From an uncultured bacterium (GTDB taxonomy: Bacteria > Armatimonadota > JACIXR01), in the NCBI GenBank assembly GCA_938041455.1, contig CALITO010000033.1, forward strand, positions 1 to 44,173: a stretch of 44,173 bases of DNA, in the 5' to 3' direction. Made by a program: the position numbers and the translations under genes. This document shows positions 3,342-16,163 of this stretch, piece by piece (position 1 is the stretch's first letter; each line of letters begins with the position of its first letter). The notes under the pieces were generated by a model, which saw only the letters and a program-made list of their open reading frames with translations, ran no database searches and was not told the origin of the DNA.

Positions 3342-4109
3342 GTGAAGAATGAAAGGCCCGTTCTCGCTAAAGTGATAATAGAGGGGCAAATGGAGTGCCT
3401 TACCGGGCTCCACATAGGGGCGAGGAGGGAGGCTATGAAGATAGGGGGTATAGACTCGCCGGTTGTGCGCGACCCCATAACGGAGTTCCCCTATGTGCCG
3501 GGAAGTTCCCTAAAAGGCAAGATGCGCTCCCTCTTGGAGCGGAAAATGGGGAAGGAATTCAACCGTGACATAGGTGGCGTCAAAATCCACTCCTGCACGG
3601 ATAGGGAATGCGAGATATGCCGGCTGTTCGGCTCCACCGCGGAGGGGGAAGGGGGTGAGAACATTCCCTCCCGCCTCGCCGTGCGAGACCTATTTCTCAC
3701 AGAGGAAAGCAAGGAGAAACTGGAGGGGATAGAGACAGGGCTCCTCTATACCGAGTGGAAGTTTGAGAACGCCATAGATAGAGTTACCTCCGCCGCCAAC
3801 CCCCGCCAGATAGAGCGAGTGCCAGCGGGCTCAGTCTTCAAACTGGATATAATTTATACAGTGGAGAATATGGAGCATCTGGAAGAGGATTTGAGAAACC
3901 TCCTCTCCGCTATGCGCCTTTTGGAGGACGATTACCTCGGCGGACACGGCTCAAGAGGCTACGGAAAAGTCAAGTTCCAACTCTCCAAAATAGAGTATCG
4001 CAAGAGCGAATGGTATTTAACAGGCAAGGACGAAGATAAAAAGGAATGGAAAGTCCAAAGCATAGATGAGGCAATTGCCAAACTCCAGGAGATAGTGAAA
4101 TTCCAATAA
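3342..4109 (+). CDS. csm3: Csm3, type III-A backbone RNase
   Basis: RAMP-fold backbone subunit that repeats along the crRNA and cuts target RNA every six nucleotides. The GLHIG motif is followed by IGGIDSPVVRDP. The Asp in IGGID (D38 with this start) matches the known catalytic residue position of Csm3. PYVPGSSLKGKMRS then supplies the usual crRNA-contacting loop. I chose GTG 3342 because GGAGGTGA at 3328-3335 sits 6 nt upstream. An in-frame TTG at 3336 directly abuts the Shine-Dalgarno and is less likely. The protein is 255 aa, normal for the family. It has a CxxC-type group (CTDRECEIC) that may bind zinc. The stop overlaps the ATG of csm4 by one base. Confidence 0.95.
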   Translation: MKNERPVLAKVIIEGQMECLTGLHIGARREAMKIGGIDSPVVRDPITEFPYVPGSSLKGKMRSLLERKMGKEFNRDIGGVKIHSCTDRECEICRLFGSTAEGEGGENIPSRLAVRDLFLTEESKEKLEGIETGLLYTEWKFENAIDRVTSAANPRQIERVPAGSVFKLDIIYTVENMEHLEEDLRNLLSAMRLLEDDYLGGHGSRGYGKVKFQLSKIEYRKSEWYLTGKDEDKKEWKVQSIDEAIAKLQEIVKFQ

Positions 4110-13686: not shown

Positions 13687-13738
13687 GGAGGATATAGAGT
13701 GGATTGATATTGTAAAATCCCGAAATTTTCCCCTTAAG

Positions 13739-13888
13739 TTTTGCTGAATAATTAAGCCGAAGAACTTATGGTAAGTAAAAAACGAATCAGAACAAAAGGG
13801 GAAGAAACCGTGTCTTATAAGCGATTTAACTTGACAATTTTCTTCCCGAAATCTAAGGGAAAGTAACCCTTTTAGTTATTCAACAAAA
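13739..13888. repeat. MITE-like element with terminal inverted repeats, left copy
   Basis: The ends TTTTGCTGAATAA (13739-13751) and TTATTCAACAAAA (13876-13888) are inverted repeats with 12 of 13 bases matching. The 150 bp between carry no ORF of note. The interior shares a block with the right copy (13792-13832 versus 15896-15938, about 32 of 43 aligned columns by hand) and an identical AAGGGAAAG (13855-13863). It lies in the 368-bp gap before the redox cassette. The rest of that gap holds an AT-rich tract (about 13946-13970) and the promoter described next. Confidence 0.6.
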
Positions 13889-13976
13889 GGATACCCAAGG
13901 AAATAAGTTATGCTTTTCCCTTATAATCTCGATCGGATTTTGGGGTTATTTTTTTAAAAAATTTTTAAAATCGATG

Positions 13977-14005
13977 TTGACGAAAGGGGGTAAGGCAGTT
14001 ATTAA
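13977..14005 (+). promoter_or_regulatory. Candidate promoter of the redox cassette
   Basis: TTGACG at 13977-13982, a 17-bp spacer, and TATTAA at 14000-14005. An AT-rich tract just upstream could act as an UP element. Initiation near 14012 gives a 43-nt leader with AAGGAGGT at 14043-14050 before ATG 14055. Confidence 0.5.
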
Positions 14006-14054
14006 ATAAAAATGTTGTTTCCAATAAAACCATTACCGAGATAAGGAGGTAAAA

Positions 14055-14273
14055 ATGGCTGAGAACTGGTATCCCATAATAGATTATTCTAAATGTAAAG
14101 GTTGCCTTTCCTGTGTGGAGTTCTGTCCCAATAATGTTTTTAAGGTGGAAAATGGGAAACCTATAGTGGCTAATCCTGCTAACTGTGTGGAGTTTTGTAG
14201 AGGATGTCAAAAAGCCGCTTGTCAATATAATGCAATTACTTATTACCAAGACCACAAAAATAGGAGGTGTTAA
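14055..14273 (+). CDS. Two-cluster ferredoxin-like protein (72 aa)
   Basis: Small electron carrier predicted to bind two [4Fe-4S] clusters. The first site is the standard CKGCLSCVEFCP (residues 14-25). The second, CVEFCRGCQKAAC, has a longer first gap (Cx3Cx2Cx4C) than usual. The same deviation occurs in the second ferredoxin of this cassette (15446), and both begin W(Y/H)PIID(Y/E)SKC, so the two are paralogues. ATG 14055 follows AAGGAGGT by 4 nt. It is the first gene of a four-gene AT-rich run. It presumably passes electrons to or from the neighbouring HdrA-like and ProC-like proteins, but no reaction is shown by sequence. Confidence 0.85.
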   Translation: MAENWYPIIDYSKCKGCLSCVEFCPNNVFKVENGKPIVANPANCVEFCRGCQKAACQYNAITYYQDHKNRRC

Positions 14274-14275
14274 AA

Positions 14276-14641
14276 ATGAAAAAGGGTCTTTTGCTCTGTG
14301 TTTGTCAGGGAACATGTCCATCGTTCAAAGGGATGGACATCTTTGAGGTTTTGAATACTATCAGACGGGAAAAACTTGTGGATTTTGTATCTATTCATCC
14401 TCAACTGTGTGCAGATGATGGCGATGGATTTCTTGCAACACTTATGTCCAACAGAGACCTCGATGCGTTATTCATAGCAGGATGTGACCCGAGGATGCAA
14501 CAGAAGATGTTTAAGGATACTTTTAATGAAGCGGGTTTTGACCCCCAAAAACACTTCGCAGTAGATATCAGAAATATGACCACCCAGCAGGCAATAGATG
14601 CCATAAAAGATCTCATCAAAAAGTCTGTTTCTGAAAAATAA
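14276..14641 (+). CDS. Stand-alone HdrA N-terminal-like iron-sulfur protein (121 aa)
   Basis: The protein resembles only the first ~120 residues of heterodisulfide reductase subunit A. It has a CxCxxxC segment near the start (LCVCQGTCPS) where HdrA has its CxC/G motif. A single Cys follows after QL (QLCADDGDG), then ALFIAGCDPRMQQKMFKDTFNEAGF, equivalent to the ASCSPR...AGLNP block of HdrA. The flavin-binding rest of HdrA is absent. ATG 14276 is 6 nt behind AGGAGGTG (14262-14269); an in-frame ATG at 14267 overlaps that site and is rejected. Conserved Cys residues suggest a bound cluster or a thiol relay. The family resemblance is from memory of the motif order and needs a profile search. Confidence 0.65.
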   Translation: MKKGLLLCVCQGTCPSFKGMDIFEVLNTIRREKLVDFVSIHPQLCADDGDGFLATLMSNRDLDALFIAGCDPRMQQKMFKDTFNEAGFDPQKHFAVDIRNMTTQQAIDAIKDLIKKSVSEK

Positions 14642-14652
14642 AAGAGGCAATT

Positions 14653-15435
14653 ATGGAGAAAATAAATACAATTGGGTTTATAGGGGGCGGAAGAGTTACA
14701 CGAATTATACTCGGTGGATTTAAAAATGCGGGAAAGATCAATGAATACAAATTTATAATAAGCGATATACAACCAGAAGTTTTAGAAAGACTAAAAAGAG
14801 AATATGGGGAGATAACTATCACAGATAACAATAAAGAAGTTATCTCCTCTGATATAATATTTCTCGCAGTTCATCCGCCGGTAGTGAGAAAAGTTGCAGA
14901 GGAAATAGAAACCTGTTTGACGAAAGATAAGGTCCTTATTTCACTCGCCCCCAAAATTACTATAGCGCAACTATCCGAAATGCTGAACCACTTCAACAAA
15001 ATCGTCAGGATGATACCCAATGCCCCATCTATAATAAACAGTGGTTATAACCCTATCCATTTCTCTCCAGCATTCACACAAACAGAAAAAAATGAATTGC
15101 TAAGTGTTTTGAATATCTTAGGGGAGACCCCTGAGGTTGAAGAAGAAAAATTAGAAGCATATGCTATTCTAACTGCAATGGGTCCAACATACCTCTGGTT
15201 TCAACTATACGAACTTCAGGATATTGTAAGAGATTTTGGACTGCCTGAGGAGGAAATAGAGGAAGGAATAATAAAAATGGTTTGTGGTGCAGTGAAAACA
15301 ATGTATAAATCGGGACTTCCTCGGACTGATGTAATGGACTTAGTTCCTGTTAAACCATTGGGAGAGGAAGAGGAGAACATAAAGAATATATATAGAAGAT
15401 GTCTGAACATTATCTTCAAAAAATTAAAAGGTTAA
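14653..15435 (+). CDS. ProC-like NAD(P)-dependent reductase (260 aa), probably not a true P5C reductase
   Basis: Pyrroline-5-carboxylate-reductase-like fold. It has an N-terminal Rossmann motif IGFIGGGRVT (residues 7-16), the second motif VRMIPNAPSIINSGYNP, and a dimerisation domain with TAMGPTYLWF in place of the family's SGSGPAY. Near the C-terminus, where ProC has the substrate-binding SPGGTT segment, this protein reads VPVKPLGEEEEN, so the normal proline-pathway site is altered. Length is close to ProC (about 270). The start follows an AGAGG site. It lies between the HdrA-like gene and the second ferredoxin in an AT-rich operon, which suggests an NAD(P)H-linked redox step. Genuine proline synthesis is an alternative I consider less likely. 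Confidence 0.7.
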   Translation: MEKINTIGFIGGGRVTRIILGGFKNAGKINEYKFIISDIQPEVLERLKREYGEITITDNNKEVISSDIIFLAVHPPVVRKVAEEIETCLTKDKVLISLAPKITIAQLSEMLNHFNKIVRMIPNAPSIINSGYNPIHFSPAFTQTEKNELLSVLNILGETPEVEEEKLEAYAILTAMGPTYLWFQLYELQDIVRDFGLPEEEIEEGIIKMVCGAVKTMYKSGLPRTDVMDLVPVKPLGEEEENIKNIYRRCLNIIFKKLKG

Positions 15436-15445
15436 GGAGATAAAA

Positions 15446-15817
15446 ATGGCTAAGGAAAACCCCTCGGTAAAACTTTTAGAGAAGTTTGCAAAATGGAAAG
15501 GTGTTCCAAGAGAAGAAATAGAGTGGCATCCAATAATTGATGAGAGTAAATGCGTGGGCTGTGGCTTTTGTGTTACAACCTGTGGGAGGAATGTATTTGA
15601 CTATGATGAGGAGAGAAAAAAGGCAGTTGTCGCAAGACCTTTACAGTGCACAGTTGGATGTACTTCATGTGAGGTGTGGTGTATATTTAATGCAATCAGT
15701 TTTCCTAACAAGGAGGTTGTAAGAGATTTTATAAAAGAAAAAAAGATACTTACCACAGTTCGCAAGGAACTTGAGACAAAACTAAATGAATTAAACAAAA
15801 ATAGTGAAAACCAGTAA
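15446..15817 (+). CDS. Second ferredoxin-like protein with helical tail (123 aa)
   Basis: Paralogue of the cassette's first ferredoxin with extensions at both ends. The N-terminal 30 residues (KLLEKFAKWKGVPREEIEW) are new. The clusters are CVGCGFCVTTC (first site, lacking the usual Pro after the fourth Cys) and CTVGCTSCEVWC (Cx3Cx2Cx3C). A C-terminal charged helix of about 40 residues follows and could be a docking arm or coiled coil. AAGGAG precedes the ATG at normal distance and the gene starts 10 bp after the ProC-like gene. The right-hand inverted-repeat element begins 7 bp after its stop, so the cassette ends here. Confidence 0.83.
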   Translation: MAKENPSVKLLEKFAKWKGVPREEIEWHPIIDESKCVGCGFCVTTCGRNVFDYDEERKKAVVARPLQCTVGCTSCEVWCIFNAISFPNKEVVRDFIKEKKILTTVRKELETKLNELNKNSENQ

Positions 15818-15823
15818 TCTTGG

Positions 15824-16010
15824 TTTTGTTGAATAAAGGGAAACGTATCCTCCTCTTCAGCGGTTTCCTCCCTTTCTTTTGGAATAAATAGCTTTACAAA
15901 AAGCGAAGAGAAACTATGTTTTATTGGCCATTTAACTTAATGCTACATTTATATAAACTTCGTCATTCCTTCGAAGGGAAAGCGAATGTTCTTTGAATTA
16001 CTCAACGAAA
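15824..16010. repeat. MITE-like element with terminal inverted repeats, right copy
   Basis: Ends TTTTGTTGAATAA (15824-15836) and TTACTCAACGAAA (15998-16010) are inverted repeats with 11 of 13 matches, and they match the ends of the left copy. AAGGGAAAG recurs at 15974-15982, at nearly the same distance from the right end as in the left copy. No transposase or other ORF lies inside. The following 153 bp to the next gene show nothing else I can identify. Confidence 0.6.
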
Positions 16011-16163
16011 CTGTAATTTTCCCTTTCATCTGACCTTGTATCTTAGGATCACTTATCTCTTACCGGCCTGTCCTAAAATTTTAAAAGTGCGACTTGCGTG
16101 TTAAATATTTTTCCTACTATCCAGCCAGAGAAGAAAGTGATATCTTATTAAAAGGTGAGGAAT

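Follow-up and report, generated by a model that had tools for sequence, protein, structure and literature searches.

Composition and comparison with other genomes show the four-gene redox operon at 14055–15817 of the window to be foreign to its genome and horizontally acquired, and it borders almost exactly on two small elements. The window is the whole 44,173-nucleotide stretch of DNA analysed here, contig C33 of genome G000 (2.2 Mb, 50 contigs, 97% complete), whose pilin-like sequences suggest the Armatimonadota, and the ends of both elements belong to a recently amplified insertion sequence (IS) and MITE family that the genome-wide counts show to be specific to this species.

The acquired redox operon

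The cassette has a GC content of 37%, against about 48% for the window, of which it is the most AT-rich part and, at the 1-kb scale, the only stretch below 40% GC; its GC3 values are 0.32–0.40, compared with 0.49–0.64 in the other long ORFs of the window. The first-pass annotation, which had drawn attention to this AT-richness, gave counts (17/60, 24/60 and 30/60 GC) that were exact. Positions 14046–15807 are 82% identical at the nucleotide level, with the same gene order, to a contig binned as Omnitrophota (L180; JAMWCZ010000057.1), and in L181 the donor homology extends to 15822. Parts of the cassette are also found in L179 and L181, which likewise carry the Omnitrophota label, and in G071, the fourth genome of that set; the name of the donor is tentative because of MAG binning. 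Donor homology stops within about 16 bp of the left element and 2 bp of the right element, a wide search detected none outside the elements, and the IS right end that forms part of the left element (see below) was not found in the donor-like genomes. In the congener G002 the same neighbours (a nucleoside hydrolase and a GH123 protein) have nothing between them but a 146-aa ORF, the cassette being missing at that place, so that it lacks syntenic conservation there. Neither congener offers a clean empty site, as G002 has this ORF and the neighbours lie apart in G001. An orthologue of gene 3 is missing from both congeners and is present in one of 58 other genomes of the same phylum (G046, 45%), and searches of plasmids and viral contigs for the cassette returned only ordinary proC (<30%) or nothing. 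The earlier proposal that a foreign cassette had been captured is thus supported by the GC content, the identity to L180 and the absence from the congeners.

All four genes are read on the forward strand. Gene 1 (14055–14273) encodes a 4Fe–4S ferredoxin of 72 aa (Pfam Fer4, 1e-7; 78% to L180), gene 2 (14276–14641) a 121-aa protein resembling the N-terminal domain of HdrA (NCBIfam HdrA2, 6e-8; PDB HdrA 9sfi, 5e-6), gene 3 (14653–15435) a pyrroline-5-carboxylate reductase-like NAD(P) oxidoreductase of 260 aa, which at 119 bits lies below the curated NCBIfam proC cut-off of 196.75 bits, and gene 4 (15446–15817) a further 4Fe–4S ferredoxin of 123 aa (77% to L180). The host genome has a second, weak homologue of gene 3 at C50:25535. 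Judged by dN/dS values of 0.10–0.24 against L180, the cargo operon is conserved and under purifying selection. PADLOC matched none of the cassette, and a literature search found nothing relevant on this gene set or on MITEs in this lineage. The four genes most likely form an electron-transfer module, which in relatives is sited in arsenic and thiol-redox islands. Related ferredoxin, HdrA-N-like and ProC-like sets, of variable gene order, occur at L179, L180, L232 and L233, all in MAGs binned as Omnitrophota, where they lie in islands with an ArsP_1 permease, a redox thioredoxin, a DsbD-type protein, an ArsR regulator and an SBF transporter. Close to the homologues of the cassette genes there are ArsP_1 permeases, thioredoxins, a DsbD-type protein, an SBF-family (ACR3-like) transporter and an ArsR-type regulator, and from these arsenic and thiol-redox neighbours our guess is that the cassette may have a role in metalloid or thiol redox.

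The flanking elements and their IS/MITE family

The two elements lie where the first-pass annotation had placed them, and their 13-bp terminal repeats are found at 13739–13751 (outer left repeat, forward strand, TTTTGCTGAATAA), 13876–13888 (inner repeat forming the right end of a MITE A fragment, reverse strand, TTTTGTTGAATAA), 15824–15836 (left repeat of the right element, forward strand, TTTTGTTGAATAA) and 15998–16010 (right repeat of the right element, reverse strand, TTTCGTTGAGTAA, two mismatches). At two mismatches or fewer the 13-bp end has 10 matches in the window against 2.8 expected, a number reached by none of the shuffled sequences, and the perfect 13-bp pair was also recovered as an inverted repeat. 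In a proper alignment the two interiors are similar above background: their local alignment scores 45, and none of 2,000 shuffles exceeded 39. The shared block of about 43 bp described earlier is therefore above chance, but the best ungapped 43-mer common to both interiors has 30 matches, not the 32 or so that had been counted by hand; the identical interior 9-mer (ATTTAACTT) was confirmed.

The left element starts at 13739 on the forward strand, as first described, but it ends at about 14030 and not at 13888, since homology to the IS family continues to that point. It is a mosaic of an IS5-family IS left end (13739 to ~13805; score 67, shuffle maximum 41), a MITE A fragment (~13793–13860; score 63, shuffle maximum 42) and an IS right end (~13931–14030; score 92, shuffle maximum 46). 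Within the last of these, 13961–14030 on the forward strand matches the IS right end at 78% (E 1.9e-9), reads towards gene 1 and lies about 25 bp upstream of its start. The first-pass annotation was right that no transposase is encoded by either element, as there is no intact transposase ORF in them, but the left element is partly a deleted IS and therefore not a simple MITE. The right element (15824–16010, forward strand; 187 bp) represents MITE A, which is 221 bp long, in a diverged form (score 240, shuffle maximum 46), and it matches full MITE A copies at 75%. Both elements are short (150 or 292 bp on the left, according to the extent taken, and 187 bp on the right), non-coding and bounded by 13-bp inverted ends, with copies throughout the genome, which supports the MITE-like nature first ascribed to them.

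The genome holds many further copies. The end TTTTGYTGAATAA, at one mismatch or fewer, occurs 123 times compared with 6 for the reversed control pattern, a density of about one end per 18 kb, whereas in the two congeners it is near background (16 versus 12 and 19 versus 11 for the control). MITE A has 40 matches in the genome. Near-identical 221-bp copies are present on contigs C3, C8 and C18, and C10, C39, C40, C45 and C46 carry half-copies at their ends, as expected because recent repeats break short-read assembly. Target-site duplications of 8–9 bp, judged against 4,430 cross-contig control pairs, are present around full MITE copies (9/9 at C18, C4:202139 and C8:56559, and 8/8 at C44:21372).

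Longer relatives of these elements carry transposase fragments (C16:5865–6363, C8:271213–271856 and C37). Two of the fragments match the NCBIfam model transpos_IS5_2 (NF033579; 1e-13 and 4e-19), matches to Pfam DDE_Tnp_1_5 (PF13737) and DDE_Tnp_1 (PF01609) are also seen, and the IS5-family fragments sit inside elements bounded by MITE-type ends. The assembly holds no intact autonomous IS, only decayed copies and ends at contig breaks. The first bases of contig C44 fall within the start of a transposase that looks intact, and on both C17 and C21 the same transposase end is found, with the IS right end after it. At least two IS copies therefore seem to have been lost at contig breaks. Neither congener has this transposase. 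The family resembles IS5-family insertion sequences in its transposase fragments, its short inverted ends and the outward promoter-like sequence of the IS right end (TTGACG-17-TATAAT); it differs in that no intact copy is assembled here, and it is placed at the level of the family.

Several other features of the genome were observed. At five loci (C2:75951, C7:72934, C11:2975, C26:6179 and C44:126) a family end is found next to a DNA methylase gene or within one. In addition, a secreted-protein gene family has at least seven copies, on C13, C20, C23, C24, C35, C37 and C42 (L145, L153, L156, L207, L210, L082 and L094), that begin immediately next to an IS right end or a MITE, three of them with the near-identical junction AACAAAACCAATGCTACAAAAATACTTGCACAATTTT, which suggests that the secreted-protein genes and the IS/MITE ends were amplified jointly. 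This family was considered as a third cargo and rejected: its repeat stops at C42:3507, whereas the terminal repeat is at 3594, and it has a host-like GC content. At the beginning of the window (positions 4–99), TCAATCGCACCATAGTGGAATGGAAATA occurs twice (82%) and probably marks where a CRISPR array ends in degenerate form; a similar CRISPR-like array lies beside the hydrolase gene in congener G001 (C6:~153200–155500).

Possible movement of the cassette

At C7:72934–75613 (L141) lies a cargo unit of 2,680 bp whose ends are those of the family in the window. Its cargo has a GC content of 36% and consists of a 216-aa ORF and a gene for a 619-aa protein with an HATPase_c_3 domain; PADLOC matched only the interrupted methylase and gave no hit for the cargo. 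The unit splits an N6_N4_Mtase-HNH gene exactly (profile positions 1–42 and 40–220), a perfect 10-bp duplication (10/10; CATATAGATT) surrounds it as a whole, and its right boundary has only about 20 bp of IS-like end. This arrangement makes it clear that at least one foreign block other than the window cassette, that on C7, jumped as a unit between ends of this IS/MITE family.

Our working hypothesis, which we hold at very nearly an even chance, is that the redox operon moved as a composite between two non-autonomous elements, both derived from a single IS5-family element. A transposase of the IS5 family, working in trans, would recognise the outermost inverted ends, at 13739 and 16010, and would move the block of about 2.3 kb as a composite, as with the 2.7-kb block on C7. 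The IS right end before gene 1 may now provide a promoter in place of the operon's own, which would have been lost when the genes were transferred. A degenerate copy (TTGACG-17-TATTAA) of the outward promoter of intact IS ends is found at 13977–14005; because its −10 sequence is degenerate and was not called in a promoter scan of the window, we infer only that the IS right end may supply a promoter for gene 1.

The direct repeats around the unit bear on two explanations at once. An outer repeat, AATTTTCCC(C/T)TT, flanks the whole unit with 11 of 12 positions matching (left copy 13724–13735, AATTTTCCCCTT; right copy 16015–16026, AATTTTCCCTTT), a score reached by 0.11% of the 4,430 control pairs and, among real pairs, only by C7 and the window unit. 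It lies 3 and 4 bp from the unit ends, however, whereas genuine duplications lie 1–2 bp away, and it is thus out of register. The right element has a possible duplication of its own that is in register, at 15813–15821 (AGTAATCTT, which includes the stop codon of gene 4) and 16012–16020 (TGTAATTTT), with 7 of 9 positions matching, a level reached by 1.1% of controls. No target duplication was found for the left element alone or for 13739–14028, which speaks for the composite. The composite mobile unit proposed in the first-pass annotation therefore gains from C7, which moved as a unit, and loses by the register of the outer repeat and by the right element's own duplication.

It is also quite possible, at a little under an even chance, that the operon arrived by another route (recombination of transferred DNA, for example) and that MITE and IS copies inserted independently later in the AT-rich non-coding stretches to either side of it, the bracketing being incidental. 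The in-register duplication fits such a history, as its left copy forms part of the donor sequence, L181 being identical there, and weak colinear donor-like sequence follows the right element (P 0.007 at 30 nt and 0.05 at 40 nt), so that donor-like sequence may resume just after the duplication. The mosaic left element, made up of several insertions, and the frequency of the IS/MITE family in AT-rich intergenic DNA point the same way. Two later insertions would, however, have had to fall within about 16 bp and 2 bp of the ends of the donor homology at the family density given above, and both the 11/12 outer repeat and the presence of a composite of the same kind (C7) in the same genome argue for joint movement. 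Movement as a composite and independent insertion stand nearly level because both lay claim to the same few bases.

It is improbable that only the left IS mattered and that, in its deleted state, it captured the adjacent operon through one-ended or aberrant transposition with a chance or MITE right end: the IS right end does directly abut the operon, and the right boundary of C7 has only its short IS-like end, but the right boundary in the window is a full 187-bp MITE and not a bare end. That the cassette contig is foreign to this genome, through an error of assembly or binning, is most improbable, for although the donor-like records are low-coverage MAG contigs, a single 44-kb contig holds the cassette and the species' own MITEs, and on either side its host gene order agrees with that of G002.

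Relation to known systems

If the unit moved as a composite, its closest counterparts would be the TIME-COMP structures, composites in which the boundaries are formed by two miniature elements derived from Tn3 (PMC4133298, PMC13367494). As in those, two transposase-less MITE-type elements bracket foreign low-GC cargo that has no part in transposition, movement would depend on a transposase acting in trans, and promoter-bearing ends have been suggested to express the captured genes. TIME-COMPs in the strict sense have Tn3 ends of 38 bp and 5-bp duplications, whereas here the ends are of 13–15 bp, the duplications of 8–10 bp and the transposase of IS5 type; the host molecule is the chromosome of an uncultured bacterium, and movement of the window unit is proposed. 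MITE-flanked integrons and resistance genes have been described (E622, IR148/mcr-5 and class 1 integrons of Acinetobacter), as have promoters inside MITEs (PMC10969869). In these too a gene block has a small inverted-repeat element at each terminus, but their flanking MITEs are identical copies, whereas here an IS/MITE mosaic is paired with a MITE A copy. Mobile insertion cassettes carry single IS ends, whereas complete mini-elements flank the window cargo. These cassettes, named as MICs in PMC4133298, are similar in having IS-type ends around cargo genes without a transposase. The window unit would be an IS5-family case of the known MITE-bounded composite, in a new family and a new host.

Most known cases of gene capture by mini-elements that lack a transposase come from resistance plasmids of Proteobacteria. 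In the present case the setting is a chromosome of an uncultured lineage and the cargo is not one of resistance genes; C7 gives clean evidence of one jump. The cargo operon of the window is conserved and has arsenic and thiol-redox genes as neighbours in its closest relatives, and we found no functional description of it. One might go further and regard the IS5-family MITE system as a capture and expression device that would repeatedly take up foreign AT-rich blocks (the window unit and C7) and add an IS-end promoter, the cargo being an undescribed ferredoxin/HdrA-N-like/ProC-like redox module spreading between phyla, a broader proposal that we consider rather unlikely. The movement of C7 as a unit does imply that small transposon relics may shuttle genes in this uncultured species.
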